Assembly: GCF_900129025.1 (NCBI RefSeq)
Contig: NZ_FQUM01000005.1
Coordinates: forward strand, 1-64,000
DNA: 64,000 nt
Direction: 5' to 3'
From: Mariniphaga anaerophila
Lineage (GTDB): Bacteria > Bacteroidota > Bacteroidia > Bacteroidales > Prolixibacteraceae
Shown in pieces: positions 5,402 to 61,528 of this stretch. Numbering within the stretch: position 1 is the stretch's first letter; each line of letters opens with the position of its first letter. Both the position numbers and the translations under genes were made by a program. Below the pieces are notes generated by a model that was given only the letters and a program-made list of their open reading frames with translations, ran no database searches and was not told the DNA's origin.

Positions 5402-6178
5402 TTATTTTGGATCTGTGCAAAAAGCGTTTATCTCCACCAGCCCGTCCAGAGTCAGCATGCGCTCAATATTCCGGATATTTTTTGTTAACGGGGCAACCAC
5501 CGAACTCAACCCGCCGGTGGCAACCACCGAAATTTTCTCGCCTATTTCTGCTTCGGTTCTTTCAATCATCGAGTCGACCAGCCCGGTATAGCCGTAAACA
5601 ATACCCGATTGAATTGCATGAATGGTATTTTTCCCTAAAACCGACGGAGGCGTAGTAAGGTGAACATGCGGAAGCTGCGCTGTTTCTCCGGCCAGTGCAA
5701 TCACCGCAGTCTCCAGCCCCGGAGCAATGGCCACCCCGCGTATTTCGGCATTTTTGCCAATGGTTGTAAACGTAAGTGCAGTGCCAAAGTCAATTACCAT
5801 GGTCAGCTCACCATATTTCTGAAAAGCGGCCACTGCATTTGCGACCAGGTCAGCGCCTATTTCGTATGGATTCAGAATTTTAATGGGCAACCTGGAATAA
5901 ATTTCAGGACCTACAACCGTAATTTTAGCACTGGCAAACAAGCCCTGCAACATTTCGGAAAACGGGCGAACCAACGACGGAACAACGCTACTCAGAATAA
6001 TATTATGCACGCCCGACCGGAAAACTTTTCCGGCCGCAAGCAACGAGCGAAAAATAACTTCGTATTCATCAGCCGTTTTGTGATGATCGGTCTGAATACG
6101 CCAATGATTTTTCCATTCGCCGTTATCGTTTATTCCAAAAACAACGTTAGTATTTCCGATGTCAATTGCCAGCAACAT
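5402..6178 (-). CDS. coaX: type III pantothenate kinase
   Basis: A 258-residue cytoplasmic enzyme that phosphorylates pantothenate, the first step of coenzyme A synthesis. It has the ASKHA-fold N-terminal motif LLAIDIGNTNVVFG, the catalytic region GADLVANAVAA and the second phosphate-binding segment VIDFGTALTFTT, followed by ATGGLSS. Length fits CoaX. I choose the ATG directly before LLAIDIGN; an ATG seven codons upstream (6199) is possible. It converges on the ABC ATPase gene, and the next gene on its strand is the UvrD fusion. Confidence 0.93.
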   Translation of the reverse strand: MLLAIDIGNTNVVFGINDNGEWKNHWRIQTDHHKTADEYEVIFRSLLAAGKVFRSGVHNIILSSVVPSLVRPFSEMLQGLFASAKITVVGPEIYSRLPIKILNPYEIGADLVANAVAAFQKYGELTMVIDFGTALTFTTIGKNAEIRGVAIAPGLETAVIALAGETAQLPHVHLTTPPSVLGKNTIHAIQSGIVYGYTGLVDSMIERTEAEIGEKISVVATGGLSSVVAPLTKNIRNIERMLTLDGLVEINAFCTDPK

Positions 6179-6300
6179 AATACGCTTGTTTAATTTCAAA
6201 GTACAAATATCAAATTATTTTTAATACCTGCCTGTTTCAAACCCGCCCATCTGCAATTTTTCCTGTTTCTAAACTTTTTGATCGGCCTTTCAATTCACCT

Positions 6301-9300
6301 TCAAAACAAACTCAGCTGATTGTCTTTCTCTTCCGGTTTTTGGCACGAACCGCTTTTCTCCTGTTGAACCAGCTCCTCCTGAATTGCACCCAAAAAAGGG
6401 CTTTTTGCAAAAACAAATTTCCGGCCCCGCAAAACCCTGCTCCGCGCATTGGTCAAAAACAGCAGTTTTTTTGCGCGGGTCATTCCCACATACAGCAGCC
6501 TTTTTTCTTCCTCCTCGTCCACTTCTTTTTTATACAAATTATAGGGAAGCAACCCGTCTTCGCACCCGGGAATAAACACACATTCAAACTCCAACCCTTT
6601 TGAAGCATGCAGCGTCATTACCGAAACGGCTTCCAGGTTTTTATCATGGGTGTCACTTCCGGCACCAAGTTTCAGAAATTGAATCAATTCATCTGCAGAG
6701 TTCATTTTTTCTGACAGATGCAAAAACCGGTTCCAATCCTCCGGATTAAATGCCTCAGCCGAAAAATGCGTTTCCTTAACAAAATTCAAAAATGGAAGCA
6801 ACCGGCTATCTTTCATCTTATTGCGAGCCAAATCAAATTCCATTTTAGATATCGACTGTTTTCTGAGTTGAAAAACCGGAGCTGCCTGTTCGTAAGAATC
6901 AAAAGCAAAAGCACTGAGCATGTCGCAGAAAGCAGAAAAAGGCTCCCGCTGAAAAAAAGCGTCTGTGCCACTTTCCTGATACGGAATGTGGTGGTCGCAC
7001 AATGCTTTTACAACAGCTTCAAACTGGCTGCGGGTGCGACATAGCACGGCAAAATCTGACAAGCTGTTAATGGTTTCACTTTTATCGCCACCAGACACCG
7101 AACTGTCGATTGAAAAGAAGCTGACTCCGCCAACCAACTCCTCAATTTTCCGGGCAATAAATTCGGCTTCGGCAGCGCCGGTCGGCTGTTCCGAGATGGA
7201 AATCTTTACTCCTTCATTTAACCCTTCGAGAAAATCGGAACTTTGATTCAACACATTGGAAGAAGCTGATAAAATGGTCTGCGAACAACGGTACGAACGC
7301 GTAAGCCGGAACACACCGGCATCGGGATAATCTTCAGCGAACTTTTTAATGTAACCTGCATCGGCTCCCCTAAAACCGTAAATCGACTGATTGGCATCGC
7401 CCACCACGCACAGGTTCGAATCGGAATCGGGCGCCAGCAATCGCAGCAGCTGATACTGTGTATCGTTGGTATCCTGATATTCGTCTACAAAAATGTACCG
7501 GAATTTCTGACGATACTCCCCTGCCGCTGCATCGTTTTGCGACAAAAGTTGCAGCGGCTTCTCAATCAGATCATCAAGATCGAACGCATTTAACTTCTGC
7601 AATTGAGTTTCGTACAGCGAGAAAAGCGGTGTTGCCAGATGGCTTCCCTTTTTTATTTCAGAAATTTCCGCGGAAATTTTCCTGGCTTCGTTTCGGTTAA
7701 CTTTCTGTATCGATTTTATAATTTCCAACTTCAAATCTTCATCCACCAACAGAAAATTTTCGTTCCGCCCCAACTCTCCATAAAACGATTTCAAAATGGA
7801 AAGCCCGAATGCATGAAAAGTAGAAACAGCTATTTCTGCAGCTTTTAATCTGTTTTTCAGGAGAGTTTCCAGCCGTTCTCTAAGTTCAGCGGCGGCTTTA
7901 TTGGTAAAAGTAATGGCCAGTATTTCCTGAGGCAAAGCAATATGGTTGCCCACCAGCCACGCAATTTTGCTAGTCAGCGTCTTGGTCTTCCCGGTTCCCG
8001 GCCCGGCAACAATCAACGACGGCCCGCAGGTGTGTTGCACTGCTGCCAGTTGTTCAGGATTCAAATCGTTAAAAACACTGTTTTCCGAAGGAGAAATCGC
8101 TTTGTCTTCATCTTTTTCAGCATCCTGATTTTGGATCTGCTCTTTTTGATGCAGCAGATTCCTGATACCTTTCAAATCAAAATCAATCAGCGCTCTCTTC
8201 GAAGGAGGCAATGGTTTTTCCTCCTGAAAGAGCGAATTTGTGGCTTCAAAGCTTTTCGCCTCGCCAGGCTTAAAAACATTAATTACTCCGTACTCTCCGT
8301 CAAATCCCTCCTGAATGTAAACTTCCCGATTTCTCATCCGGCGAATTGCCTCGGCCAGTATCGGAGATGACTTCGATTTGATTTCTTCCAGCGGAACTTC
8401 TAACAAAATATCAAGCTCTCTGCCCAGCTTCTGAATCGTTTGCATGTACTTGCCATCCACTTTTTTTGAGTTCACTCCCACACCTGTAATTTCCGCCAGC
8501 ATCTCTTTTAGCGGAATTATCGATTGAAAAGGCAGCCGGTTGGGGCGTTCTTCTACATTTACCCGGTCAGACAAATGAATTACACGGTTCATCACACCAA
8601 CTGTTACCGGCTTTCCACACTCCGGACAAACATAGTTGTTACGCAACGTGTTAACCGGATCCCAACAAATGTTACACTTCCGGTGCCCGTCGTAATGGTA
8701 CTTCCCTTCCTGCGGAAACATGTCGATGGTTCCCTGGTATTGCTCCGGATTTCCGGTACGCAAAGCGTCGGTTATTGCGCCGTAACTAACATCTGTATTA
8801 AAAATATTAGCGTTGCGCCCGAGGCGTTCGGGCGAATGAGCATCAGAGTTGGAAACCAGCGTAACTTTATCCAGAAACGAACAAAGCCAGTTCATGGGCG
8901 GGTCGGTAGACAATCCGGTTTCGATGGTGTTAATGTGAGGAGACAAATCAGCAAAGCATTCTTCCAGCGAATCGAACCCCGATTTTGATCCCAGCATGGA
9001 AAACCAGGGGGTCCAGATATGGGCAGGAATGAAATAGTTGTTTTCATTGCAATCGAGTACTATTTCCAGCAAATCGCGGGAGTCGAGTCCCAGAATTGGC
9101 CGCCCGTCGGAGGTAAGATTTCCGCCCAGGTTAATCAGCCGCTGGTTAATTTTTTCGGCATCTTCAAACCCGGGAGCCAGAACCACATTGTGTACTTTTC
9201 GAACCTTTTCTCCCCGTTTATAAATATTACTGATTTCTGCAGTAAGCAAAAACCGTGTTTCGTTATTGCCAAACGGCGAATCAAGCCGGTATTCTTTTTT

Positions 9301-11282: not shown

Positions 11283-13646
11283 ATGAGATTTTATGCAATT
11301 CTTAACTTATTTTTCTATTTAATTATTACAAGCAACCTAAACGCCGATGAGCCGGATAAACGGCTAAATACCGATGCGATGCTTTTTGGCGATGTAAAAT
11401 CAGGAGGCGAGCATATTCCGTTTGCTTCAATAACTATTAAAGGCACAACCATTGGCACGGCGGCAGATGCAACCGGCCATTTTAAACTTACTGACTTGCC
11501 AACGGGAATGCAAACAGTAATGGTTTCTGCGGTTGGATACAAACCTTTTTCAAAAGAGATGGAGATGAAAGCCAACAGCAGTGTTACTATTCTGGCAGAG
11601 CTGGAACCCGACAATATCGGGATTGAGCAGGTAGTGGTTTCGGCCGACAGAAATGCCAAAAGCAGAAGCAAAACCCCTACCATTGTAAACAGTATTAATC
11701 CAAAGCTATTTCAGCGTACCCAGAGTGTGACACTGAGCGACGGACTGAACTTTTCGCCCGGACTTCGCATGGAAAACAACTGTCAGAACTGTGGTTTTTC
11801 ACAGGTAAGAATGAACGGGCTGGAAGGGCCATACACGCAGATACTTATTAATTCCCGCCCGGTGTTCAGCGGGCTGGCCGGTGTTTATGGCCTCGAACTA
11901 ATCCCCGCAAATATGATTGAACGGGTGGAAGTAATCAGGGGCGGCGGCTCAGCCATGTACGGAAGCAACGCCATTGCCGGAACTGTTAACCTGATTACAA
12001 AAGATCCCATTGCCAATTCGTTTTCTGTTGCAAGCAATTACAGTTCGGTCGGAATGGGCGCCAGTCCTGCCGGAGATTTCAACCTGAACCTGAATGGTTC
12101 TTTTGTAACCGACGACTACCGCACCGGAATAACCATGTACGGGTTTTACAGGGACAGAAATCCGTACGATGCCAACGGCGACGGCTACTCCGAACTTTCT
12201 GCCATTGACAACAACACGTTGGGGGCACGCTTTTTTCAGCGCGTGGCAACCCGCGGAAAAATCACAATAGACTATTTCCATATTAATGAATTCAGAAGAG
12301 GCGGAAATAAGTTTGACCTTCCGCTTCACGAATCCGATATTACAGAAAGTGTTGATCACTCCATTAACTCCGGCTCAGCAACATTTGATTTATTGATGCG
12401 CGAAGCCGACAAACTGACTGTTTTCTTTTCGGCACAGCAGGTCGACCGGAACTCATATTACGGAGCGAACCAGGATCTTTCAGCTTATGGAGAGACAAAT
12501 GACTTTACATTTTCGTCGGGAGTACAGTACCTGCGGCAGCTTGACTATTTTATTTTTGCGCCCGCTACATTAACCGGAGGTCTGGAAATAAACGGGAGCC
12601 AGCTCCAAGACAAAAAACTTGGATATTATGATATTGAAAAGCAAGTTCATATGGAAAATACACCCGTTGCCGACCAGCACATTACTACAGAAGGCGCTTT
12701 TTTGCAATCGGAGTGGAGCAAAAAAAAATGGACAATTGCCACCGGTGTAAGATACGACCACTACCAGATTACCGATGATATCAGCTCAAATAAAAAAGTT
12801 TCGGGAGATGTTTTCAGCCCGCGTTTGAGCTTACTTTATAACCTCAGCCATGAAGTCCAGGCCAGAGTTGGTTTTGCTAAAGGTTTCCGGGCTCCGCAGA
12901 TTTTCGACGAAGATTTGCACATTGAAACATCAGAATCGAGGCAGGTACTCCACAGGAACGACCCTAACCTGAAACAGGAAACCTCCAACAGTTATACTGC
13001 CTCGCTGAGTTACACGCTTGAATCGGGAAAATGGCAATATCAATTTCTGGCCGAAGGATTTTACACCAGGCTAAGCAACCCTTTCTCTAATGAATATGGT
13101 GATAGCGATGAAAACGGAACCGTTATTTACACCCGAAAAAATGCCGAAAAAGGAGCTAAAGTACAAGGTGTGAATCTGGAATTTAACGCCTCACCATCGA
13201 ACAGGTGGCAGTTTCAGTCGGGTTTTACCATGCAAAAAAGTGAGTTTGAAGAACCGCAGGAATTTAACGAAACCCGTTTCTTCAGATCGCCCGACAGCTA
13301 TGGATACCTGAGCATGAATTACCAGCCGTCGCCGCGGCTGAACATCTCCGCAACCGGAAACTACACCGGACAAATGCTGGTCCCGTACTTTGGCCCCGCA
13401 CTTGAAGAACCTGAAGAAGGAGAGCTGAGAGAATCTCAAGCGTTTTTCGACGCCGGGCTAAAAGTTTCCTATTCCATAAAAATTACAGATTACATAAAAA
13501 TGGAATTAAATGCAGGCATGAAAAATATATTCAACTCTTACCAAAATGATTTTGATTTAGGTGCAGACCGCGACCCGGCCTATATTTACGGGCCTACCTC
13601 GCCACGTACAATCTATTTCGGACTCAGATTTGGCAGCCTCTTGTAA
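11283..13646 (+). CDS. TonB-dependent outer-membrane receptor, probably metal-related
   Basis: A 787-residue receptor. After a signal peptide (1-21) comes a carboxypeptidase-regulatory-like beta domain (~33-105), then a TonB-box region (IEQVVVSADR) and a plug domain (~125-240, GGGSAMYGSNAIAGTVNLI). A 22-strand barrel ends IYFGLRFGSLL. In the plug, CQNC (167-170) with RMNGLEGPYTQILINSRP is a conserved variant seen in a subgroup of Bacteroidota receptors. This is not a SusC protein: it is short, has no SusD partner and lacks the SusC plug signature. The His-rich neighbour upstream suggests a metal or metal complex as ligand, but the sequence does not prove this. Confidence 0.88.
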   Translation: MRFYAILNLFFYLIITSNLNADEPDKRLNTDAMLFGDVKSGGEHIPFASITIKGTTIGTAADATGHFKLTDLPTGMQTVMVSAVGYKPFSKEMEMKANSSVTILAELEPDNIGIEQVVVSADRNAKSRSKTPTIVNSINPKLFQRTQSVTLSDGLNFSPGLRMENNCQNCGFSQVRMNGLEGPYTQILINSRPVFSGLAGVYGLELIPANMIERVEVIRGGGSAMYGSNAIAGTVNLITKDPIANSFSVASNYSSVGMGASPAGDFNLNLNGSFVTDDYRTGITMYGFYRDRNPYDANGDGYSELSAIDNNTLGARFFQRVATRGKITIDYFHINEFRRGGNKFDLPLHESDITESVDHSINSGSATFDLLMREADKLTVFFSAQQVDRNSYYGANQDLSAYGETNDFTFSSGVQYLRQLDYFIFAPATLTGGLEINGSQLQDKKLGYYDIEKQVHMENTPVADQHITTEGAFLQSEWSKKKWTIATGVRYDHYQITDDISSNKKVSGDVFSPRLSLLYNLSHEVQARVGFAKGFRAPQIFDEDLHIETSESRQVLHRNDPNLKQETSNSYTASLSYTLESGKWQYQFLAEGFYTRLSNPFSNEYGDSDENGTVIYTRKNAEKGAKVQGVNLEFNASPSNRWQFQSGFTMQKSEFEEPQEFNETRFFRSPDSYGYLSMNYQPSPRLNISATGNYTGQMLVPYFGPALEEPEEGELRESQAFFDAGLKVSYSIKITDYIKMELNAGMKNIFNSYQNDFDLGADRDPAYIYGPTSPRTIYFGLRFGSLL

Positions 13647-25844: not shown

Positions 25845-26930
25845 TCAGGTAAAAGCCACGTCGCCGTCGCCATCCTGAAACGCATATTCTTTTTCAGAAA
25901 AAATCGGTTTTAACTCGTTTGAATATCCGGCAAACCGAATAATCTCTTTACGAAGCAACCACTTTCTCCCGCTGTTCCTAAACGCTTTCTCCAACTCCGT
26001 ATTAAAAACAACAAGACTGTTTGCTTTCATCTGAAAAAGATGTTTCCAAAGCAGATGCGCCACATCAGCCAAAACGCCCTCAGTACAGTAAATAAAAGGA
26101 ATGGAAGCATGCTTGTCGCGAACCGAAAGCAACAACAATGCAACCAACTCATTGTCTCTTTTTACCTCCAGAAACTCTTGTCTGAAATGCGCCACATGAT
26201 ATGTAAACGGGTATTCAATTTCATCTTCCGGTGCGTTGCAGGCAACCCACGGATATTGAACCACCCAGTTCAGCTTTTCAGTATTCTGCCTCAGAAAACT
26301 GTTGCCGGGGTGCTTCTCAATAAACAATAAATGTTGTTCATCCAGCCTTTCAACGGCATTCAATGAATACGCTTTTAAATGGGATTTTTTAAAAAAGAAC
26401 GAAAAACGCAAATCTACCGCAATATTAAAAATACTGTCGGCCGCAGAAAAAAAGCCTGAGAGAACCCGGTTTTTCCCTTTCCTGCGCAGCAAATTGCCCA
26501 AATAAAAACGCAGGAAAAACCGACTGCCCTTCACCTCCGGATCCATTGTAAACAAACCGGTTCTTTCTAAAATTGATTTGGTATGTGCGGTACTGTCGGT
26601 TAAAAACATCCTTCTTTCACAAAACTGAAAAGCCTTTAGAAAAACAGGCAGCCCAAACTTGCGACCCAGTTGTGGGTGAACCCACCAGCCCGAATTGGAA
26701 AAAACAGGTGCATCAACTCCTTTTGCACGGTGAGGAAGAATTCCGGCAAATGCAAGAAGCGTATTCTTTTCTGCGGCAAAAACCAACGCAACATCCTCAT
26801 CCCGGGCATCCGGATTTTTAGCCTGCGAAATTGCCCGCAGCGGGCTTATTGGCTTCGGTTGCAGCCCGGCATACTCATCACTCCGAATAAAAGCGGGCAA
26901 CTCACCTACTGTAATTTCCCTGACTTTCAT
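25845..26930 (-). CDS. GNAT-like protein, last gene of carrier-protein operon
   Basis: A 361-residue cytoplasmic protein with two GNAT-like halves. The first (~1-130) has AFAGILPHRAKGV and SGWWVHPQLGRKFGL, resembling the acyl-CoA-binding segment. The second (~180-330) holds LLLLSVRDKHASIPFIYC. It may transfer an acyl group from the acyl carrier protein encoded immediately upstream, but the active site is not identifiable. Its start shares one base with the carrier protein stop (TAATG), so it is translationally coupled. Confidence 0.7.
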   Translation of the reverse strand: MKVREITVGELPAFIRSDEYAGLQPKPISPLRAISQAKNPDARDEDVALVFAAEKNTLLAFAGILPHRAKGVDAPVFSNSGWWVHPQLGRKFGLPVFLKAFQFCERRMFLTDSTAHTKSILERTGLFTMDPEVKGSRFFLRFYLGNLLRRKGKNRVLSGFFSAADSIFNIAVDLRFSFFFKKSHLKAYSLNAVERLDEQHLLFIEKHPGNSFLRQNTEKLNWVVQYPWVACNAPEDEIEYPFTYHVAHFRQEFLEVKRDNELVALLLLSVRDKHASIPFIYCTEGVLADVAHLLWKHLFQMKANSLVVFNTELEKAFRNSGRKWLLRKEIIRFAGYSNELKPIFSEKEYAFQDGDGDVAFT

Positions 26931-27169
26931 TATTTGCCGTTTGCAAAAATGTAATTCACAATACCTGCAACATCTCTGATTTCAATAATTTCAAAAAGGT
27001 CGAACTTCATGTCAAACGCTTTTTCCAGTTCCTGAATTAAAATCACATGATTAAGCGAATCCCATTTTCCGATGTCATCAGCAGACGTTTGTTCGGTTAA
27101 CCCATCAACTTCTCCAAAAACGTTTCGGAATGTGTCCAACGTTTTTTCTACAATTTCTTCTCGTGTCAT
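26930..27169 (-). CDS. acyl carrier protein
   Basis: A 79-residue carrier protein with a phosphopantetheine attachment Ser38 in GKWDSLNHV and the usual four-helix pattern (MTREEIVEKTLDTF..., LIQELEKAFDMKF, IEIRDVAGIV). It lies in an operon with an adenylation enzyme and two GNAT proteins rather than with fatty-acid genes, so it is probably a dedicated carrier. The frame is open upstream, but the earlier part overlaps the GNAT gene and has no carrier-protein character. Start ATG is 6 bases past the stop of the preceding GNAT gene. Confidence 0.9.
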   Translation of the reverse strand: MTREEIVEKTLDTFRNVFGEVDGLTEQTSADDIGKWDSLNHVILIQELEKAFDMKFDLFEIIEIRDVAGIVNYIFANGK

Positions 27170-27174
27170 TATTT

Positions 27175-27918
27175 TTACTGTTTCCAAAAAATCACTACTT
27201 TTTCCCGGGCAGAAAACCCGAGTCTCGAATATAAAGGTACTGCCTTTTGAACTGCCTGCAGCACCAGCATCTCCGATTTCTGCCGGCACAAATTTAATAC
27301 ATACCCGATTAAATCTGAAGCCAACCCTTTTCCCCGGCATTGCTGTTTTGTAACAATAAAATAGAGCCCGGTTGTTTTTTCTTCGGTAAAAGCCAGAAGC
27401 CCGCTAACCAGTTCGTTTTCCACAAACAGCCCGTAAATATTAACCGCTTCAGTTTTATTGAGTTCATTCAAAAGCGAACCTGCAATTTTCACAGACTGCA
27501 TCAACTCTGTGTTTACCAAATTTGTAAATACTGCAATCTCGGCAGGAACTTTTATTTTTCGTATTTGAATATTTTCACGAAAAATTTTTGTGGGTTGAAT
27601 GGAGGGCACCGCGTCCATCAATGTCCAGGTTCTGATGGGGAAAACCCCTTTTTCGCGCAGGTACTGCAACTCGTCGCTACCAAAAAGAGCGGCACTGCAC
27701 ACTGCAAACCCGGGAAGATTCTGCGCTTTGGTTTCAGACAACACCTGATCAAGAAAATACGCCGGATTTTCCGAAAAATCAAGTCCGAAAACCATTTGCG
27801 GCCATCTGTTTTCTTCTCCGCACACCACACTAAATCCGTTTTCGTCCAGAAGTAAAACAGAAGGACTGATTCCAGTGGCACGGTAAAAGCCAAACAGGTT
27901 AACTAAACTTTTATTCAT
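27175..27918 (-). CDS. GNAT family acyltransferase
   Basis: A 247-residue protein with a C-terminal GNAT domain (~135-245). GLYFIVTKQQCRGKGLASDLIG holds the Q/RxxGxG/A acyl-donor-binding loop, followed by LVLQAVQKAVPLYSRLGF, the typical last strand and helix. The first ~120 residues have no recognised domain (LPGFAVCSAALFGSDELQYL). It overlaps the adenylation gene upstream by four bases and is followed after 5 bases by the carrier protein. It probably acylates an amine using the loaded carrier or a CoA ester; substrate unknown. Confidence 0.82.
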   Translation of the reverse strand: MNKSLVNLFGFYRATGISPSVLLLDENGFSVVCGEENRWPQMVFGLDFSENPAYFLDQVLSETKAQNLPGFAVCSAALFGSDELQYLREKGVFPIRTWTLMDAVPSIQPTKIFRENIQIRKIKVPAEIAVFTNLVNTELMQSVKIAGSLLNELNKTEAVNIYGLFVENELVSGLLAFTEEKTTGLYFIVTKQQCRGKGLASDLIGYVLNLCRQKSEMLVLQAVQKAVPLYSRLGFSAREKVVIFWKQ

Positions 27919-29405
27919 TGTTTTGAATTTAAGTAAAAATCTGCAGCCAGTTTCTTCTTGTCTGTTTTTCCGGAACGATTAACCGGAAACACGGGTATGC
28001 CAACTATTTTTTCGGGGATTTTGAACTTTGGAAAGAACAAAGCCATTTTCTCCATAATCTCTTTTTCGTCACCCTTAAAATTCTCAACAAACACTACCAG
28101 TTGTTTCATTCCGGGCGACTTTTCAGCAGCAATTGCAGCCACATTTCCACCTACAGGAACGACTTTTCTCACCCCATTTTCAATTTCAACCAAATCAACA
28201 CGGTAACCATTTATTTTCACCTGGTCGTTCAGCCTGCCCATAAAATAAAGGTCGCCGTCCGCATCAATCGTTACTTTGTCGCCGGTAGGATAAAACCGTT
28301 GCTGCTCACCGTCTGTCTCCAGAATTTTAAACGGCTGTTCTTCTGCAAACCAATACCCTTCCATCATCTGCGCTCCGCCAATATAAAGCTCCCCAACGCC
28401 ATCTTCCCCGTCAATCTTTTGAATATGTATCCGCACATTTTTAAACGGCTTCCCAATGCTCACCACATTGTTCTTTTCTTTTAATACCCGACCAGGCAGA
28501 CATTTAAAAATGGTTGAAGTAATGGTAGTTTCCGTCGGCCCGTATCCGTTCGATATTTCGGCATTGGGAACGTGAGAACGCCATTCGTTAATCAAATCGG
28601 CAGGCAATGCTTCTCCCCCAAAATGAAAATGCTTCAAGCCGGGGAGGTGAAGCGACGAAAAAAACGGCCGCAAACATGCCAGAAGCGTTGGCGTTGCCTT
28701 CACCCAGGTAATTGGTTTTGCCGAAAGAATTTTAGCCACCGCAAACGGTTTAAAATTACTGTGCGGCACAGAGTAAACCGTCGCGCCCAAAAGGAAAGGC
28801 ACAAGGTAGCCGGTAAAAGATGCATCGGCAGTTAATTCATAAGTCTGCAAAAACTTATCCGACGCGCTCAACTCCGGAAACTTTTCAACGAATCCGTCAA
28901 TAAAAGCAGAAAGGTTTTTCAATGTAATGGGTACACTTTTAGGCACTCCGGTACTGCCGGAAGTATTCAGCACATAAACAGTATGGCTCTCCTGCCACTG
29001 AAAAAGCGGAGCTGTTTCTTTGACGGAAACTTCTCTATTGCAAATAATTTTTGCGTTGTCAAAAGAGAACGAATCAGCGTTTTCAGAAGCGTAAAAAAGG
29101 TATTTAATCTGATGTTTTTTAACCAGCTCTTCGTTTAGCATTTTCGGCGCATCAGCATCCAACGGAACGAAAATACCGCCGGAAAACCAAATGGCAAAAA
29201 CAGCAGCGTAAGTTTCCACACGCTCATTGCACAGAACACCAACGGGAGTTTGCGGCTCGTATCCGGGCTGAGACTCCAGAGCTTTCCGGCTTCCTTGAAC
29301 CAATAATAAAAATTCGCGATAGGTGTATATTTCATCGTTCAGGCTAAAAGCTTCGTTGTTCCCGAACCGGTTAAATGCTTCAAAATATTTCTGAATGAGA
29401 TTCAT
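27915..29405 (-). CDS. amino-acid/acyl adenylation enzyme (NRPS A-domain or DltA-like)
   Basis: A 496-residue stand-alone adenylation enzyme. Core motifs are TSGSTGVPK (A3, 148-156), NGYGPTETT (A5, 287-295), YPTGD (A7, ~372), GRLNDQVKINGYRVDLVEIE (A8) and NRSGKTDKKKL with the catalytic Lys (A10, ~476). The YGPTETT form is typical of NRPS and D-alanine:carrier ligases rather than fatty acyl-CoA synthetases. It very probably loads the small carrier protein encoded two genes downstream; the substrate acid is unknown. Overlap of four bases with the next gene shows coupling. Confidence 0.88.
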   Translation of the reverse strand: MNLIQKYFEAFNRFGNNEAFSLNDEIYTYREFLLLVQGSRKALESQPGYEPQTPVGVLCNERVETYAAVFAIWFSGGIFVPLDADAPKMLNEELVKKHQIKYLFYASENADSFSFDNAKIICNREVSVKETAPLFQWQESHTVYVLNTSGSTGVPKSVPITLKNLSAFIDGFVEKFPELSASDKFLQTYELTADASFTGYLVPFLLGATVYSVPHSNFKPFAVAKILSAKPITWVKATPTLLACLRPFFSSLHLPGLKHFHFGGEALPADLINEWRSHVPNAEISNGYGPTETTITSTIFKCLPGRVLKEKNNVVSIGKPFKNVRIHIQKIDGEDGVGELYIGGAQMMEGYWFAEEQPFKILETDGEQQRFYPTGDKVTIDADGDLYFMGRLNDQVKINGYRVDLVEIENGVRKVVPVGGNVAAIAAEKSPGMKQLVVFVENFKGDEKEIMEKMALFFPKFKIPEKIVGIPVFPVNRSGKTDKKKLAADFYLNSKQ

Positions 29406-29420
29406 CGTTTTCTCCCCGTT

Positions 29421-30395
29421 TTAATGTTTCATTGTTGCCTTTCCCACCAGTTTTCGCAACTCATAATAAACAAATTCGCCTTTCAGATTTCGAACAAAAC
29501 TGCCGGGTAACTCCACCGGATACCGCTGAAAGTGAGAACTGAACGGATCGTTTTTTACACCGGCTGTTCCGAAAGTGACATCACAAATATGTTCATCTTT
29601 AACAACCCTCAGCACCGAAGCCGGCACACCGTCGTCGGTAAACGGAAACGAAAATGCTTTTATTGGGGGACTTACCAATTCTTCAACCCGGGCCATGCTT
29701 TCTTTAATTTCCTTGATTTGCTCTTCTTCCGAGATTTTCCAAAACTCAGGATGACTGTGACTGTGGGCGCCTATTGTAAATCCATCCATGTTCAAACTTC
29801 GAATTTGAGAAGAAGAAAGATATGGCTTTTGTCGGTGTAAAAAGTCTTCAAAATCGATGCCCAGCATAGTTGCGGCTTCGTTTAAAATTCCAACACGGGA
29901 AACGTCAACCTTGAGAATTTCCTCCACCGCGAGCCCGTTTTTTTTCAGAAAGGCCAGTGTTTCAGGATGCGTTTTTTTCATCAGCCGGTTCAAAATAATA
30001 CTTGCCTTGTATTTGTGAAAAAGCGCGTGATTGTCCACAAAAGCCGTGTTCACAAAAAACGTAGCAGGAATTCCCTTCTTCAGAAGTATCGGAGCAATTA
30101 CATCGTAACTTTCCCTCAGACCATCGTCAAAAGTAAGATGAAAAATCTTTTTTCCGGAACTCTTTTCCGAAATCAGTTCTTCCAGCGAAACCGGCACAAA
30201 GTATTTCAAAAAGAAATCGAGTTCCTCTTCAAACCGGGCGATATTTCGGTACGGGTAATTTAAAATGTGTGGCAGTTTATTGTCGCTTACCACATGGTAA
30301 AAAGGCAAAAAGCAAGGCGTGTTTCGTTTAAACAGCCACTGTTCAGAACAAGCTGAACTTAATATTTTGCTTACGTTGCGGGCCAATTTTCTCAT
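29421..30395 (-). CDS. NodB-type polysaccharide deacetylase
   Basis: A 324-residue protein with the NodB homology domain. Motif 1 is HLTFDDGL (catalytic base and metal Asp) and motif 2 is GAHSHSHPEF (two metal His); KAFSFPFTDD may correspond to motif 3. No clear signal peptide is present, so it could act in the cytoplasm or on a membrane-linked glycan intermediate. It would remove N-acetyl groups from sugars, exposing amines that the GNAT proteins could re-acylate (inference). Its start overlaps the upstream stop by one base (TGATG). Confidence 0.87.
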   Translation of the reverse strand: MRKLARNVSKILSSACSEQWLFKRNTPCFLPFYHVVSDNKLPHILNYPYRNIARFEEELDFFLKYFVPVSLEELISEKSSGKKIFHLTFDDGLRESYDVIAPILLKKGIPATFFVNTAFVDNHALFHKYKASIILNRLMKKTHPETLAFLKKNGLAVEEILKVDVSRVGILNEAATMLGIDFEDFLHRQKPYLSSSQIRSLNMDGFTIGAHSHSHPEFWKISEEEQIKEIKESMARVEELVSPPIKAFSFPFTDDGVPASVLRVVKDEHICDVTFGTAGVKNDPFSSHFQRYPVELPGSFVRNLKGEFVYYELRKLVGKATMKH

Positions 30396-31318
30396 CAGAT
30401 GTGTTTTTTAAGCCACTTTACGGGAAGCGGCAGCCGGTTGAAATTCATCCGGTAATAGGTTTCGGGGGTAGCGCCAAACCCTTCAAAAAAACGGGCAACT
30501 CCCGGAAGCATGGAGCCCTCAAAATCGAGTGTCAGGTTTTTCCCCGAACAGGATTTCAAAAAACGGTCGACCAGCAAAAACATAGCCCGCATCTCCTTGC
30601 CTTCGTCACTTGAGATGGCATTCATATAAATTAACCGGTTTTTCCACCGGAGAAAAAACACGGCGGCACACAATACATTTCCTTGAGAATAAACCCCTTT
30701 TATTTCACCGAATCCGTGGTACTGACTATGGGCAATAATGCTTTTCAGTTTCTGATAAGTATTTTTCGGGAGGTTAGCTGCCAGGTTTTGTTGTTTTAGC
30801 GCCATAAATTCTTCCAGGCTCACTCCTCCCGCGTAGTTCAGGCGATTGTTGTTGGCTTTGGCAATGTTACGATGAGTATTTTTTGAATATGCCGCAGAAA
30901 GAATTTCATAATCGGTGTCCAACAAAAGCAGAAAATTTTTTCGGGGCGAAAACTGAAGTTCTTCCAGTTGTTTGGGCGGGAGGTTGAATGCATTACACTG
31001 AATATCGGAATACCTGAATCTTTTATATATTTCAGCGTAAAACTCCAACGCAATATTGGCAGGCGCCGGAGGGAAAATTCCCAACTGCTGGCAATAAATA
31101 GGTTGATACAAATAATCCACCCCAAATTTTCTTTTGAAAGGCAGTGGCATCACAAATTCATAATCGCCACACACCAAGGCATTCCAAACTACCGCCGTTC
31201 GATCGAGGTACCAGGAAGCTGCATAAACTCGACTGTTGTCAGCTTCGTTTATGCAGCGGTTCCACCTTTTATAATCTATTTCGTTATGCTTTAAATATCG
31301 TAGTTCTTCTTTAGACAT
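30395..31318 (-). CDS. FemAB/GNAT-fold transferase
   Basis: A 307-residue cytoplasmic protein with a C-terminal GNAT-fold domain (YSKNTHRNIAKANNN, VLCAAVFFLRWKNRLIYMNAISS, LTLDFEGSMLPGVARFFEGFG). The last segments match the FemAB-like family seen in polysaccharide-modification clusters, where such proteins transfer aminoacyl or acyl groups. It overlaps the upstream deacetylase gene by eight bases and the downstream one by one base. Donor and acceptor are unknown. Confidence 0.8.
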   Translation of the reverse strand: MSKEELRYLKHNEIDYKRWNRCINEADNSRVYAASWYLDRTAVVWNALVCGDYEFVMPLPFKRKFGVDYLYQPIYCQQLGIFPPAPANIALEFYAEIYKRFRYSDIQCNAFNLPPKQLEELQFSPRKNFLLLLDTDYEILSAAYSKNTHRNIAKANNNRLNYAGGVSLEEFMALKQQNLAANLPKNTYQKLKSIIAHSQYHGFGEIKGVYSQGNVLCAAVFFLRWKNRLIYMNAISSDEGKEMRAMFLLVDRFLKSCSGKNLTLDFEGSMLPGVARFFEGFGATPETYYRMNFNRLPLPVKWLKKHI

Positions 31319-32633
31319 CAGCTAATTCAAATCCTAATTTGTTCATCTTTTCAAAAACCTCGCGGTACCCTTTCCAGTTTCCGTCGTCGTTAACTGTTTC
31401 GTTGTGCCAAATTGCAGAAAAAGTACCGCCAACCTTTTTAATTTCATTCATCAGGGACTCAATTTCGGCAGTTGCTTCTTCCGGTTTCAGGTTCATATAA
31501 TTTCGCAAAGTTACATCCATAACCTGAAAAGGAACTATTTTCAACGAGGTTGCTGCCTCTCTTTTTAAATCGTAAAAATAGAACGGAGTACAAATTCCGG
31601 CCCTGAATCCTGTGCGCGATGGATACCCCATGGTGTAATCTTCCTGAATACCGGCATTTATCAAACGCCGATAGGTACGCGGAAACTTTAAACGAAGAAA
31701 ATGTTGCCGGCTTTTTTCAACTTCAGAACCGGTAATTTTTTTCATCCGCGCAATCTCTTTCAACAGTTGTTTTCTTCCTCTTTTTTTGCTCGAAGAAAAA
31801 GAAGGATGGACCCCTACTGAATATTTCCGGGCCGTTTCCTGAATAAGTTTCTGCAGTAACTTGTTCTTCCAGAAAATATTTTTGTCGAAACGTGTAAAAT
31901 CGCCCAGTAGAAAAAAGAACTGTACTCTTTTTTCTTTTCCGGCATAAACTTCATCCAGATATTTGTAAGTATCAAACGGATCTTTTTCCTTCCCTCGCAA
32001 CACCCTGATTCGCCGTGCAGCGTCTGAAAATTTTCCTTTAGACACTCCTTTGAGCAGCGCTCCGACAGTGCGCCCCAGTCCCTTATTCGAAAACGCCCAG
32101 GCATTGTCCACATCAATGGTCGGAAGAAAATGAAATTTTGGTTCGGGAATAACAAGTTCGGGAAACCTTTCTTTCAGCTTTTCGCCCAACAGCCTGGCCC
32201 AGATATTTACCACCGGCTTTTTCAACAATCCGTATTTTTGAAGAATGCTGGCTTCTGCCGGAAAACGGTTGTGCCTGCCTTTCTTAAAATCGAGGTACTC
32301 TTCGTACCGGCTAACCAGATAAAACGATGCGGCCAGCGGATCGAAAGGCAAATCAGAATCGTTTGAGGTTTCAAAAAAATATTTTTCGCCATTGTACCTC
32401 ACCGGCTGAATATTGGGCTGAATAAGCGCCTTGCAATGAATAAACCGATGTGGTTTAATGTAAAACTCCTCGCCAAATTTCTCATACGAGTAATTCAGCT
32501 TTGGCAGGTCGGATTTTAAAAACTCGGATGACTTACCGGTGAACGAAACTTCGTTCTGCAGAATAGTAGTGAAAATTAATTTTGAAATGAATTCAATACG
32601 GGGATTCAATTCGTCGGTATAAATTAATATCAT
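31311..32633 (-). CDS. polysaccharide deacetylase family protein with extra N-terminal domain
   Basis: A 440-residue protein. Residues ~1-160 are an alpha/beta domain without assigned function (MILIYTDELNPRIEFISKL). From ~165 a deacetylase-like fold follows: FLPTIDVDNAW (Asp pair), VGVHPSFSSS (metal His region), a GYPSRTGFRAGICTPF motif and SAIWHNETV near the end. It lacks the exact NodB TFDDG box and has the variant seen in Bacteroidota surface-glycan clusters. First gene of the seven-gene operon; radC lies 20 bases upstream on the same strand. Confidence 0.8.
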   Translation of the reverse strand: MILIYTDELNPRIEFISKLIFTTILQNEVSFTGKSSEFLKSDLPKLNYSYEKFGEEFYIKPHRFIHCKALIQPNIQPVRYNGEKYFFETSNDSDLPFDPLAASFYLVSRYEEYLDFKKGRHNRFPAEASILQKYGLLKKPVVNIWARLLGEKLKERFPELVIPEPKFHFLPTIDVDNAWAFSNKGLGRTVGALLKGVSKGKFSDAARRIRVLRGKEKDPFDTYKYLDEVYAGKEKRVQFFFLLGDFTRFDKNIFWKNKLLQKLIQETARKYSVGVHPSFSSSKKRGRKQLLKEIARMKKITGSEVEKSRQHFLRLKFPRTYRRLINAGIQEDYTMGYPSRTGFRAGICTPFYFYDLKREAATSLKIVPFQVMDVTLRNYMNLKPEEATAEIESLMNEIKKVGGTFSAIWHNETVNDDGNWKGYREVFEKMNKLGFELADV

Positions 32634-32653: not shown

Positions 32654-33352
32654 TTATAGCATCATTCCCTCGTCAGCAAAGCTAAGATAGTTGTTTTGTC
32701 CAATAATAATATGGTCGAGAACAGAAATGTCCATCAGTTCGGCTGCCTGTTTAATTTTCCGGGTGATTTTCAGATCGGCCTCCGAAGCTTTCATCGTTCC
32801 CGACGGGTGATTGTGTGAGAGGATAAGCGATACTGCCATTTTCTCCAGCGCATTTTTCAGGATAATCCGCACATCAATGACTGTTCCCGAAATTCCGCCG
32901 CGGCTAATCATAAAATGATCGATAATTTTGTTTCCCCGATCAAGCAAAAGCACCCAAAACTCTTCGTGATTGAGGTCGCCCAGCAACGGCATAAAAAAAT
33001 CGGCAGCATCTTTACTCCCGGTAATTTTCTTCTTCACAAAAACCTCGGCATCTTTCCTGCGGTTGCCCAGTTCGAGCGCAGCCACAATTGAAACGGCCTT
33101 TGCTTCGCCAATTCCGTTAAACGTTTTAAGATAACCGATTCCATTTCTACCCAGGTCATTCAGGTTATTATTTACAGAGGATAAAATACGCCGTCCCAGC
33201 TCAACAGCTGTTTCGTTTAGGGTTCCCGAGCCAATAAGGATAGCAATCAGTTCTGCATCGGACAACGAGCGCGCTCCAAGAGAAAGAAGCTTCTCCCGGG
33301 GACGATCTTCTGCTGCCCATTCCTTAATTTTCAACTTTTTGTAATCGCTCAT
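32654..33352 (-). CDS. radC: RadC family JAB-domain protein
   Basis: A 232-residue protein with an N-terminal helix-hairpin-helix region (GYLKTFNGIGEAKAVSIVA) and a C-terminal JAB/MPN metalloprotease-like domain. The metal motif LSHNHPSG is followed by S-x-x-D in KASEADLKITRKI. RadC was once linked to DNA repair, but its biochemical role remains unclear. Only 20 bases separate its stop from the deacetylase start, so read-through into the glycan operon is likely. Confidence 0.93.
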   Translation of the reverse strand: MSDYKKLKIKEWAAEDRPREKLLSLGARSLSDAELIAILIGSGTLNETAVELGRRILSSVNNNLNDLGRNGIGYLKTFNGIGEAKAVSIVAALELGNRRKDAEVFVKKKITGSKDAADFFMPLLGDLNHEEFWVLLLDRGNKIIDHFMISRGGISGTVIDVRIILKNALEKMAVSLILSHNHPSGTMKASEADLKITRKIKQAAELMDISVLDHIIIGQNNYLSFADEGMML

Positions 33353-33473: not shown

Positions 33474-33725
33474 CTACAAGTTATTCACCTGAACCGCCAA
33501 TTTTGACTTCAAGTTAGCAGCTTTGTTTTTATGAATGATATTTCTCTTTGCCAATTTATCAATCATAGAAGCTACCTTCGGGTAATCCTTTGCGGCTTCT
33601 TCCTTTTCGGTTTCATTCCGCAGTGCTTTTATTGCGTTACGAGTTGTTTTGGCGTAGTACCTGTTATTAACTCGTTTCTTTTCGTTTTGCCTTACTCTTT
33701 TTAAAGCTGACTTGTGATTTGCCAT
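33474..33725 (-). CDS. rpsT: 30S ribosomal protein S20
   Basis: An 83-residue basic, helical protein of the small subunit that binds the 5' domain of 16S rRNA. It starts [18 protein letters not shown], the usual S20 signature, and has the C-terminal [17 protein letters not shown] stretch. It lies 31 bases downstream of tRNA-Glu with no promoter or terminator visible between, so the two are probably co-transcribed. Confidence 0.97.
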
Positions 33726-55242: not shown

Positions 55243-56868
55243 TTACCACGGAAATGTTTGTTCGCAAAGCGAGTTATTCCTGATTTCGAGCTGAGGGATT
55301 GGTATTTTGTAATATTTTTCAGGGAAATAGCGGTCGTCGCTTTCTATTTCAGTAACCTGATAATCCCAGTTGCCTTCTTCGTTTTTAGTAATTTTTACTC
55401 CGTGTGCCCGCTTTCCGTTAATAATTTCTTCGGCGCGTTTCCATCTTCTGATATCCCAGTAGCGGTGGCCTTCAAAAGCCAGTTCGAGCATTCTTTCAGT
55501 TTCCAAATCACTCATAAAAATATCCAGCGAAGAGTTGCTTTGGCGTGGAGCAAGGTACCCGCCCCTGGTTCTTACCCGATTCAGGTATTCATAACCTTTG
55601 GCAATATCTCCGCTTTGAGCATGTGCCTCGGCAAGGTTCAGAAGCACTTCGGCAAAACGAAGTTCAACCCAATAAGTGTCACTTCCTTTGTCAACATCTT
55701 CGTTTCCTTCTTCCATGTATTTTTTCATAAAATATCCGGTAACGCAGCCGGTGTTGTTAGAACTGAAATCATATTCCATAAACCCGTCGGCACCGCCAAC
55801 AAAAGTTTCAATTTTTCTGCCGTTCCAGTTAGCACCGTTATATAAAACAGACGCATAAAACCGTGGCTCTCTGTTGGCGTAAGGATTTTGGCTGTGTTCC
55901 GGGTTATTCCAGTCGAAGTTTTCGTATTTGCCGTCAACCTCTATTTGGTAGTGTTTTACCAGTTCTTCAGTCGGGCATGCCCAGCCACCCCGGTTGGCAA
56001 AGTCTCCGGTTGGTCCGAAATAACGATCGAAATAATGTACATAATCCGGTTTCTTAAACAATACGGGCAGAATAATTTCGCTGCTCGCTTTATTCTTGAA
56101 AATGTTGGCATATTGAGATTCCAGCGAGTAGCCCAGATCTTCCACCTTTTTCCCGGCCCAGATTACGTCATCGTAACGTTCAGCATATAATGCACAGCGT
56201 GTTAACAGGGCGTAAGCGGCTCCGGCGGTAATTCTTCCAAAATTTTCGCTGCTCCATTTGTGAGGCGCTAAAGTTTCGGCAACGTCTTTCAGTTCGTTAA
56301 TTACAAAGTCCCATGATTCTTTTTCGCTTATCCGCGCTTTGTTGGCATCTTTGGCGTTATCCAGACCGCCGTCGGCTCCCGAGTTTTCGGTTCTGAGAAT
56401 AATGCCGCCATGATTTCTGATTAGCTGATAATAAAGGAAAGCTCTCATAAAACGAACTTCGGCTTTTCTTACGGCAATAAAATCGGGGTCAAAATCTCCG
56501 GCCATTGTTTCCACGTCGTGCAAAAATTCGTTCTGCAGTTTAATCCGGTCGTAGTTTCCCCATTCGCTGAGTGCCCCGTTATTCGGAGTAATATAATTTT
56601 CCTGCAAAAGAACTTTATTCTGAAATGTATTTCCATCAATATTATTTACGCTGTATTTCAAAATATCGGACAAGCCGTCAGACATTTGCAGCGAGTGTAT
56701 TTCCGCATTATCTCGCAGAGCTGCATAAAAGCCTTTTACGTACATATCCAATGCTTTTTCGTTCTCCCAAACAACACCGTTGGAATAGCGGTCGCCAGGC
56801 TCCACTTCCAAATCGCTGCAGGAAGTTACAATTAGCAATATGCTCAGGAAAAAAACTATTTTTTTCAT
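55243..56868 (-). CDS. SusD/RagB-type nutrient-binding lipoprotein
   Basis: A 541-residue outer-membrane lipoprotein (signal FFLSILLIVTSC) with tetratricopeptide-like helices, as in SusD: VRFMRAFLYYQLIRNHGG, ESWDFVINELKDVAE, TAGAAYALLTRCALYA, and the C-terminal ETERMLELAFEGHRYWDIRRWK, the family signature. It forms the lid over the SusC pore and binds the nutrient outside the cell. It lies 45 bases downstream of susC. Confidence 0.95.
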   Translation of the reverse strand: MKKIVFFLSILLIVTSCSDLEVEPGDRYSNGVVWENEKALDMYVKGFYAALRDNAEIHSLQMSDGLSDILKYSVNNIDGNTFQNKVLLQENYITPNNGALSEWGNYDRIKLQNEFLHDVETMAGDFDPDFIAVRKAEVRFMRAFLYYQLIRNHGGIILRTENSGADGGLDNAKDANKARISEKESWDFVINELKDVAETLAPHKWSSENFGRITAGAAYALLTRCALYAERYDDVIWAGKKVEDLGYSLESQYANIFKNKASSEIILPVLFKKPDYVHYFDRYFGPTGDFANRGGWACPTEELVKHYQIEVDGKYENFDWNNPEHSQNPYANREPRFYASVLYNGANWNGRKIETFVGGADGFMEYDFSSNNTGCVTGYFMKKYMEEGNEDVDKGSDTYWVELRFAEVLLNLAEAHAQSGDIAKGYEYLNRVRTRGGYLAPRQSNSSLDIFMSDLETERMLELAFEGHRYWDIRRWKRAEEIINGKRAHGVKITKNEEGNWDYQVTEIESDDRYFPEKYYKIPIPQLEIRNNSLCEQTFPW

Positions 56869-56913
56869 CGTCATAAACTTTAATTTTTTAGATATCATAC
56901 TTTCAGTTATGGG

Positions 56914-60511: not shown

Positions 60512-61528
60512 TCATTTTCCCTCTTTTTTTGAAGTTTCACTCGTTGTTATTTCAATGGTCTGTCCAACTACTTTATAGTCAATGGCAATCATCTTTTTCA
60601 GAATATCCATCAACTCAATAAGGCTTTCGCCCTGAAACGCAGCATCGCAATGGTAATTCAGAACGCTGTCGTCCTTAATCACGAATTCAACGCCATATTT
60701 TCGTTCCAGCAACACAATCAGCTCTTTTAGCGGCATGTTTACCAAAATCAGCTTATTGTCTTTCCAGGCAGTAAACCATTTCGGATTTACCTGCTGTATT
60801 TCGGGCTTGCCTGAACCGCCCGACAAGGCCAGTTGCTGACCGGGATTCAGAACAAAATCGCGGTTAATCTGACTGTTTTTATCTGAGGAGATAACCACTT
60901 CTCCTTCTTCAAGAGTTGTGGTAACCCTGTTCTCGCTTTTATAGGCTTTCACGTTAAATTTCGTTCCGGTAACCTGCACATTGTACAGGGGAGTGTGTAC
61001 CACAAAAGGCCGTTTTTTATCCCGCTCCACCTGAAACCAGGCCTCGCCGTCAAGAAAAACTTCGCGTGGATTTCTTTTGCTGTTTACACTGTATTTTATG
61101 TCGGAGCCCGAATTCAGAAAAATAGTGGTGCCATCGGGCAGTTCCAATTCAGAAACCGATCCCAGGGGAGAATGTGCCGTGTAAAAAACCGGCGCTTCTC
61201 TGGTAACGCGGGAAGTAACAAAAACGCCCAGCAATAACCCGATAACAAGTGCAGCAGCAATACGCATTCCCATATTCAGATAGCGAATTTTCGCTTTTTT
61301 CTGTCGTTCCTGTTTTTTTATAGTAGTCCAGATATTGGCAAATATTTTTTTCAGGTTTGGCGAAGATGCCTCTGAAGCGTTCCATCCTTCCAGCTCTTTT
61401 ACCAGTTCATCTTTCAGCGCATACTCTATCTCCGGCTGGTGAAAAAGCGACAACATCTCCTGCCTGCTTTCTATTCCGGCATTTTCGGTGTTCCCTCTTT
61501 TCAGAATATTTTTAATCTGATTCTCCAT
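60512..61528 (-). CDS. FecR family anti-sigma factor
   Basis: A 338-residue inner-membrane protein. The cytoplasmic N-terminal part (1-88) should bind the sigma factor, followed by one helix (~90-108, MRIAAALVIGLLLGVFVTS). The periplasmic FecR domain (~115-215) holds SVSELELPDGTTIFLNSGS and GEAWFQVERD. The C-terminal DUF4974 domain (~255-325, LILVNMPLKELIVLLERKYG) is the part that meets the STN domain of SusC. It lies between the ECF sigma gene and susC. Confidence 0.94.
   Translation of the reverse strand: MENQIKNILKRGNTENAGIESRQEMLSLFHQPEIEYALKDELVKELEGWNASEASSPNLKKIFANIWTTIKKQERQKKAKIRYLNMGMRIAAALVIGLLLGVFVTSRVTREAPVFYTAHSPLGSVSELELPDGTTIFLNSGSDIKYSVNSKRNPREVFLDGEAWFQVERDKKRPFVVHTPLYNVQVTGTKFNVKAYKSENRVTTTLEEGEVVISSDKNSQINRDFVLNPGQQLALSGGSGKPEIQQVNPKWFTAWKDNKLILVNMPLKELIVLLERKYGVEFVIKDDSVLNYHCDAAFQGESLIELMDILKKMIAIDYKVVGQTIEITTSETSKKEGK

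Follow-up and report, generated by a model that had tools for sequence, protein, structure and literature searches.

The Wbp/Vim pathway is one of the described systems closest to the locus considered here: according to the parts of PMC7468200 and PMC13086638 that deal with it, a VimE-family deacetylase and a VimA-family transferase act in Bacteroidota bearing the type IX secretion system (T9SS), and an amino acid is placed on a sugar amine. In the sections of the former paper on the linking sugar, VimA was reported to determine its Ser/Gly and VimE was the proposed deacetylase; the section on this role of VimA names no donor (PMC7468200). The linking sugar was reported in the cited papers, as far as their relevant parts go, for three oral species, and the part of PMC11969387 (2025) on the N-alanyl form describes its pathway as unknown and allows for the existence of several pathways. 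We analyzed an operon of seven genes, g1–g7, in the first 64,000 nucleotides of contig NZ_FQUM01000005.1 of Mariniphaga anaerophila (hereafter, the window), in which putative relatives of VimE and VimA are joined by a predicted amino-acid loader and a second deacetylase–transferase pair. The source genome (G000) was 5.05 Mb in length and consisted of 45 contigs (99.99% complete, 2.65% contaminated), the contig in question being 448,965 bases long. All seven open reading frames (ORFs) were found on the minus strand between 32633 and 25845, the coordinates that a sequence-only reading of the window had given.

The operon is a mosaic of two histories, that of g1–g2–g3 and that of an exchanged g4–g7 block. 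Judging from homologies and predicted folds, it rather probably supplies a surface glycan with amino sugars that bear amino acids, by two deacetylate-then-acylate steps, with the donor block being exchangeable.

Exchange of the g4–g7 block

The locus was laid out in the family as rpsT-radC-g1-g2-g3-[g4-g5-g6]-g7, the g4-g5-g6 cassette being an insert between g3 and g7. Eight family loci that were read (L061–L068) had no g4–g6; they included three same-genus genomes, in which g2 was present and 63–72% identical. One of these genomes, G001 (L063), carried a different g7 and no cassette at the same address: identity to the window was 89% for radC, 78% for g1, 72% for g2, 70% for g3, and 29% for g7. 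With L064 and L065, the identity of g7 was 31 and 25%, respectively. In the tree of g3, the window and same-genus L063 formed a pair; in that of g7, the window grouped with cassette loci from other genera.

Trees were calculated for the 26 loci keeping g1 nearby, 18 with the cassette and 8 without it; the cassette loci lacking a nearby g1 (L036, L048, L073, and L084) were excluded. Cassette state changed once on the g7 tree (branch support 100/100) versus 5, 4, and 4 times on the trees of g1, g2, and g3, where a single cassette clade was rejected by the approximately unbiased (AU) test (p values of 1.8e-55, 2.7e-8, and 1.6e-23, respectively). Thus, g4–g7 behave as one exchanged block, and g1–g3 stay closest to the same genus. 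A tree of 101 g7 proteins (35 with the cassette, 55 without, 3 with FkbH, and 8 of undefined state at a contig end) showed 3 changes of cassette state versus a mean of 28 and a lowest value of 22 after shuffling. This set was composed of 25 of the 47 earlier g7 loci and the best 80 new ones, after removal of four duplicates and a single short row; the loci left out included non-duplicates, e.g., L045–L047. Of these two tests, the one on 26 loci is the stronger, because the 101-protein tree was a quick one that has open forks as well as long rows (L048, L088), and because the shuffles ignore relatedness. No jump in composition marked the insert: the GC content of g4, g5, and g7 (0.43–0.44) was close to that of g1–g3 (0.41–0.43), g6 alone being low (0.36). 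One indivisible seven-gene pathway was rejected, since same-genus genomes lack g4–g6 at this address and g4–g7 have a separate history.

The gene set was, at the same time, conserved in relatives, which was the test that the earlier reading had set for itself. Among 60 relatives searched with g4, five clear orthologues were obtained (G000, G020, G007, G024, and G042), after which the scores fell from 290 to 151 bits. Their neighbours in G020, G007, G024, and G042 matched g1–g7 in the same order, except for the missing g5 of G007 and the missing adjoining g1 and radC of G042. The complete order radC-g1-g2-g3-g4-g5-g6-g7 was found in L110, a metagenome-assembled genome (MAG) titled Flavobacteriaceae; because it recurs in other families and in this record, the gene order is more than chance. 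The g7 profile matched 5 of 395 genomes of the phylum sample, 57 of 140 of the family, and 53 of 393 of the order sample, the source genome being counted in each, and many relatives were records titled MAG.

Loci were taken from these matches: 48 were chosen by hand (L087 yielded no g7 with the ORF caller used), and a further 80 named loci were the best 80 of 109 relatives. The g1–g7 and radC labels were assigned with custom hidden Markov models (HMMs) built from 1–5 sequences each. The ORF caller drops short genes lying beneath a longer ORF of the opposite strand, and a number of carriers escaped it in this way; in 6 of the 34 fetched cassette loci, the position just upstream of g7 had no gene on the same strand. 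In 28 of these 34, g3 was found within 8 ORFs of g7, and in the loci scored cassette-less g3 lay immediately upstream of g7 in 47 of 55 cases.

Genes of the operon and their predicted products

The gene order and junctions described earlier were confirmed on the ORF coordinates: four junctions overlap (8, 1, 4, and 1 nt), and gaps of 15 and 5 nt separate g3 from g4 and g5 from g6, respectively. The distance between the end of radC and g1 was 20 nt, with rpsT and then tRNA-Glu farther upstream; on the other flank, a gene pair for an MlaE-type permease and an ABC ATPase was convergent with the operon. The coordinates are collected in Table 1.

Table 1. Operon genes with their predicted products, and upstream address markers, in window coordinates
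Feature	Coordinates	Strand	Basis
g1, DUF7033/VimE-family carbohydrate deacetylase, 440 aa	31311..32633	-	DUF7033 and NF053580 matches
g2, VimA-like FemABX-type (double GNAT) amino-acid transferase, 307 aa	30395..31318	-	hhalign, predicted fold
g3, NodB-type polysaccharide deacetylase, 324 aa	29421..30395	-	Polysacc_deac_1, motifs
g4, stand-alone domain for amino-acid adenylation, 496 aa; opens the exchanged block	27915..29405	-	AMP-binding
g5, single GNAT, loop QQCRGKGLA, 247 aa; missing from some relatives	27175..27918	-	Acetyltransf_10/1/7
g6, putative acyl carrier protein with WDSLNH as phosphopantetheine site, 79 aa	26930..27169	-	Site, weak ACP-family matches
g7, tandem-GNAT acyltransferase, 361 aa; closes the exchanged block	25845..26930	-	Predicted fold
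radC, address marker, frequent neighbour of g1	32654..33352	-	Pfam, recurrence in relatives
rpsT, address marker upstream	33474..33725	-	Neighbourhood of radC
GNAT, GCN5-related N-acetyltransferase; ACP, acyl carrier protein; aa, amino acids

The product of g1 matched Pfam family DUF7033 with 110 bits (cut-off 27), on which no paper was found in the open-licence PMC literature, and the NCBIfam VimE model NF053580 with 150 bits, under its equivalog cut-off of 440 bits. It was the sole NF053580 match in G000. Among 26 genomes, this model had exactly one match in 25 and none above the cut-off; in G042, the match and the operon were located on different contigs. The class sample contained matches in 218 of 247 genomes, one of them above the cut-off (G406, 675.6 bits). 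The locus of the latter (L199) encoded bcp-like and recA-like proteins (read from sequence starts), a 319-aa protein, a BshB1-like protein, and VimE. We take the 319-aa protein to be VimA from its place in the P. gingivalis order bcp-recA-vimA-vimE; it had no NCBIfam match and was matched by the g2 HMM (E 1.6e-29). Alignment of 31 g2 proteins with it by hhalign gave an E value of 1.4e-30, and the stretch DFEGSMxPGVxRFFxxFGA was common to both. Among 19 usable loci, mostly around the best-scoring VimE-family matches, g1 was directly followed by g2 in 11. A VimA homologue thus adjoins a VimE homologue in the operon, the arrangement that membership of the Wbp/Vim pathway calls for. By homology, g1 is classed as a relative of VimE and g2 as one of VimA, which in the T9SS linking-sugar pathway are the deacetylase and the amino-acid transferase, respectively. 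Proteins nearer to the presumed VimA of G406 than g2 is (157–266 bits) adjoined the cassette in two loci (L103, L104) and g7 in two others (L125, L134), all four loci being titled Saprospiraceae.

Pfam gave for g2 a weak match to Acetyltransf_6 alone (16.7 bits, under the cut-off of 22), and no NCBIfam match was found at E up to 1. The AlphaFold2 (AF2) model of g2, with a predicted local distance difference test (pLDDT) score of 94.2, was closest in the PDB to the aminoacyl-tRNA-dependent transferases Sbb17 and Sba18 (template modelling (TM) score 0.64–0.72), then to FemA and FemX; identity to the first eleven PDB chains among the fold matches was 11–14%. Since these best folds are aminoacyl-tRNA-dependent, g7 is a likelier client of the carrier than g2.

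The NodB-type assignment of g3 was reflected in a Polysacc_deac_1 match of 75.9 bits (cut-off 23.1) and in the motifs TFDDG and HSHSH. For g7, no Pfam or NCBIfam match and no PDB match by sequence were found; the earlier naming of this gene as a GNAT lacks sequence support, and it is the predicted fold that proved to be a tandem GNAT. The AF2 model (pLDDT 93.6) matched tandem-GNAT folds of the PDB with E about 5e-8 and TM about 0.5, including glucosamine N-acetyltransferase 5kf1, 7q3a, and N-myristoyltransferases; MprF was common to the fold-match lists of g2 and g7. Together, g3 and g7 look like a second deacetylase/acyltransferase pair. The g7 proteins form an unmodelled family, on which different carrier-bound acyl donors may converge.

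The adenylation domain g4 matched AMP-binding in Pfam (185.8 bits, cut-off 29.9). Its best NCBIfam match was the amino-acid adenylation domain TIGR01733 (272.3 bits, under the cut-off of 317.4); two DltA models gave 191 and 182.5 bits (the latter under its equivalog cut-off of 559.85), and TIGR03098 gave 144.9 bits (cut-off 592.35, not reached). Asp194, which we take to be the alpha-amine-binding Asp (235 in GrsA), was kept in 49 of 49 aligned rows reaching it, the window included (the alignment contained 50 rows and 36 distinct proteins). The pocket code read at the presumed GrsA positions was DATKHGGITK, and some relatives had DATKIGHVGK; such variation among lineages is expected if the amino acid varies. 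The former appears to us similar to Asp/Asn codes and the latter to Asp codes, and a text search of the literature for one such code found nothing. The specificity prediction that the sequence-only reading had asked for can thus be given with low confidence, the substrate being possibly Asp-like. Its tie between ligase and carrier held as far as genomic data go: g4 and g6 travel together, and the putative amine-binding Asp is kept.

The single GNAT g5 matched Acetyltransf_10/1/7 above cut-off and was absent from 3 of the 18 cassette loci having g1 (L034, L051, and L055). Because its loop, presumably of the acetyl-CoA-binding type, is kept and the gene is missing from these loci, g5 fits an optional editing step such as N-acetylation. 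The start of g6 was placed at 27340 in the program-made ORF list, and the 79-aa reading starts at 27169. PP-binding gave 18.7 bits on the over-long ORF (under 20.8), ACP-family scores were below the Pfam and NCBIfam cut-offs, and g6 was not one of the two matches in the genome-wide carrier search of G000. Its site fits WxS[LMVI]xH, a motif that all 42 aligned rows of carriers, 31 of them distinct, retain. One match to PF01648, the phosphopantetheinyl transferase family, was found in G000.

Two further regions of this contig were recorded. A polysaccharide-type cluster with its own carrier lies outside the window (G000:C25:204732-214900; L038:9733-19901) and encodes an asparagine-synthase-like amidotransferase (TIGR03108, 456 bits, under the cut-off), an AMP ligase, rmlC, and an epimerase-like protein; it contains a second ligase–carrier pair of G000. 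The right end of the window encodes proteins with SusD, FecR, and GFO_IDH_MocA Pfam matches (55243-56898, 60512-61528, and 62531-63874, respectively) and resembles an ordinary glycan-use locus.

Partners of g7 and of the loader in other loci

An FkbH-type protein was encoded near g7 in three loci. Two of them showed the orders g3-g7-FkbH-carrier (L081) and FkbH-carrier-g7 (L155), with FkbH above the cut-off in both; in L126, an FkbH-like protein (phmmer) was near g7, and the contig ended with no carrier seen. In L076, a carrier and KAS III preceded g3-g7; a Radical-SAM-like protein (under all cut-offs) was also present in this stretch (L076:11558-14371), which may represent a third donor route. 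Glycan-related neighbours of g7 were Bac_transf (sugar transferase) in L048 and Polysacc_synt_3 (flippase-type) in L073. In L151, a MAG titled Deltaproteobacteria, they were Wzy_C, two deacetylases, FemAB, and two glycosyltransferases. This EPS-like (exopolysaccharide) cluster of a record titled outside Bacteroidota contained two g7-family genes (6050-7150 and 11384-12484), and the 607-aa protein between them had no Pfam or NCBIfam match.

The g4 profile matched 93 of 393 order genomes at E <= 1e-60, with a gap from 453 to 342 bits that left 30 genomes above it. Of these 30 (>=450 bits), g7 was nearby on the same contig in 10, on another contig in 2, and not found in 18; the co-occurrence counts are lower bounds, since three candidates per genome were scored for g4 and up to 5 for g7, and the g4 and g7 order samples are assumed to be the same 393 genomes. 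The 20 loci of the latter two groups were fetched. Several of them had the order g4-(GNAT)-carrier followed by proteins of about 480 and about 340 aa. The former was MBOAT in all four such loci examined (L226, L227, L230, and L235), and the protein after it had no Pfam match in the three examined (L226, L227, and L230). Including L219, where the two proteins after the carrier were of the GDSL type, one with LysM and none an MBOAT, MBOAT was found in 4 of the 5 proteins examined right after g4–carrier sets. The loader thus occurs with at least two kinds of partner. The g4 tree was split largely by partner (3 changes versus a shuffled mean of 17.1; 35 proteins with g7 and 21 others, L237 and L238, with g7 elsewhere in the genome, being scored among the others). 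A role of g4 as a g7-only enzyme was rejected, given the 18 genomes with no g7 match and the MBOAT partners in four loci.

Two other arrangements of g4 were seen. In L219, L220, L221, L224, and L234, the g4–carrier sets were followed by two or three large proteins (mostly ~480–680 aa), possibly another acceptor system, and L225:7971-11006 carried two g4-type adenylation domains in tandem.

Proposed pathway in the light of known systems

In the pathway we propose, g1 would deacetylate a sugar precursor and g2 would add an amino acid to the freed amine, probably from aminoacyl-tRNA. A second amine would be freed by g3 and acylated by g7 with a donor made locally: g4 would adenylate an amino acid and load it onto the phosphopantetheine arm of g6, g5 would probably edit the loaded residue, e.g., by N-acetylation, and g7 would move the amino acid from the carrier to the sugar. 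The donor genes and the matching g7 are swapped as one block at the fixed address. As the client of the carrier we favour g7 because it is g7, not g2, that follows the cassette and because another carrier loader was found beside a few g7 genes. The glycan may be lipopolysaccharide or the T9SS linking glycan; the link to T9SS is drawn from the homology of g1–g2 and from 55 matches of the T9SS C-terminal domain TIGR04183 in G000. The earlier proposal of a deacetylase–ligase–carrier–GNAT pathway gains from the conservation of the genes and is the best-supported reading of these predicted functions, with the amendments that g1–g2 are VimE/VimA relatives, that the operon has two parts of different history, and that g7 is the likelier carrier client.

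Several findings weigh against this pathway. The adjacency of g4–g7 means that linkage alone could explain their co-transfer, without any donor–acceptor fit. T9SS domains were found in 26 of 26 genomes, with the cassette or without it, and do not discriminate between them. The fold matches of g7 reach a TM of about 0.5 at best and include acetyl- and acyl-CoA users; curated NCBIfam cut-offs were not reached for VimE, TIGR01733, DltA, TIGR03098, or the carrier models; and g5 has no firm role. Some g7 loci had housekeeping or unassigned neighbours, e.g., L143, and 55 of the 93 g7 rows of known state had no loader scored nearby, which means that g7 can work with another donor. The loader is, in turn, not dedicated to g7, as the 18 of 30 order-level g4-type genomes without it indicate.

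A different client is conceivable: the carrier-bound amino acid would go to g2 and thereby supply the T9SS linking sugar with its amino acid, with g3 and g7 merely tailoring a neighbouring sugar. The reported role of VimA in setting Ser/Gly (relevant section of PMC7468200), the position of g1–g2 in the same operon, the VimA-like genes adjoining the cassette in L103 and L104, and the 55 T9SS-domain matches speak for it. Nevertheless, we consider it unlikely. The g2 tree departs from cassette state (4 changes, one clade rejected), whereas g7 tracks the cassette exactly; the best folds of g2 are aminoacyl-tRNA users, and g2 is present in the three cassette-less same-genus genomes. The g2 tree and fold thus weaken g2 as a candidate client. 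It is quite unlikely that the cassette is Dlt-like, the amino acid on g6 being used by an MBOAT from another locus to O-acylate an envelope polymer, as the scores of g4 with the two DltA models and the MBOAT genes after related g4–carrier sets would suggest; no MBOAT was found by Pfam among the operon genes, radC, mlaE, and mlaF (the rest of the genome was not searched), the g7-linked g4 genes are largely separate on the g4 tree, and the block ends in a tandem GNAT.

The donor could also be a non-amino acid (hydroxy or fatty), which g4 would activate to yield a common N-acyl amino sugar. Many acyl ligases belong to the AMP-binding enzymes, and other g7 genes are near FkbH or KAS III; we hold this to be highly unlikely in view of the amine-binding Asp in every g4 row reaching it and of an amino-acid adenylation domain as the top NCBIfam match. 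A small-molecule pathway for a peptide or siderophore fragment, brought to mind by an adenylation domain and carrier resembling those of non-ribosomal peptide synthetases (NRPS), is extremely improbable: the seven genes encode no condensation or thioesterase domain (Pfam) and do encode two polysaccharide-type deacetylases, and the contexts in L048, L073, and L151 are glycan clusters.

Returning to the two-pair pathway with g7 as the client, we tentatively extend it: through g4–g7, a carrier-derived amino acid might come to serve as the anchoring group in the T9SS glycan, the nucleophile of the glycan being switched by block swap, and the g7 proteins might be carrier-dependent N-acyltransferases accepting interchangeable loaders (the adenylation domain, FkbH, and possibly KAS III). 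This extension is possible and rather doubtful; if true, Bacteroidota would switch the attachment nucleophile of secreted proteins by a four-gene swap beside VimE–VimA. More generally, block swapping would let related bacteria alter their surface chemistry. The locus is a testable candidate, with VimE and VimA relatives and an amino-acid loader in one operon and same-genus genomes having another g7 and no loader.

In the open-licence PMC literature, we failed to find a paper joining carrier, adenylation, O-antigen, amino acid, and deacetylase, one joining FkbH, carrier, and O-antigen, or one joining linking sugar, T9SS, and carrier; for lipopolysaccharide and NRPS, the papers found were unrelated by title. 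Exosortase A (PEP-CTERM) EPS clusters (TIGR03098, TIGR03019) combine an AMP ligase, a FemAB-type protein, and a polysaccharide deacetylase, as the operon does. However, no match to exosortase PF09721 was found in G000, compared with the 55 T9SS C-terminal domain matches; the operon ligase stays far below the TIGR03098 cut-off, and g2 has no NCBIfam match. The exosortase analogy drawn earlier was therefore rejected for G000; in the 26 genomes, PF09721 had matches in 2, 1 of them above the cut-off. Dlt D-alanylation (DltA/DltC) shares with the operon a stand-alone adenylation domain and a separate carrier, but the operon has a tandem GNAT instead of an adjoining DltB-type MBOAT, and the DltA and DltC cut-offs were not reached.

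The predicted fold of g2 is that of the FemABX and other aminoacyl-tRNA-dependent GNAT-fold transferases, as described in the relevant part of PMC12945691; its sequence identity to them is low, the likeness being known from the predicted fold. In Prevotella intermedia, an N-alanyl deoxyhexose likewise carries an amino acid on a sugar and, according to the passages on it in PMC11969387, anchors T9SS cargo; that species was reported there to lack VimA and VimE, whereas the operon has relatives of both. Compared with the Wbp/Vim pathway, in which Wbp enzymes make the 2,3-diacetamido sugar, g1 lies far under the VimE equivalog cut-off, the address is radC, and the operon additionally contains g3, g7, and a carrier-based loader. 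The earlier suggestion of an undescribed system thus holds in part: g1–g2 stand near the described Vim pathway, and the exchangeable g4–g7 block is additional. Amino-acid-bearing surface sugars are already known, and the feature added here is the exchangeable donor block.

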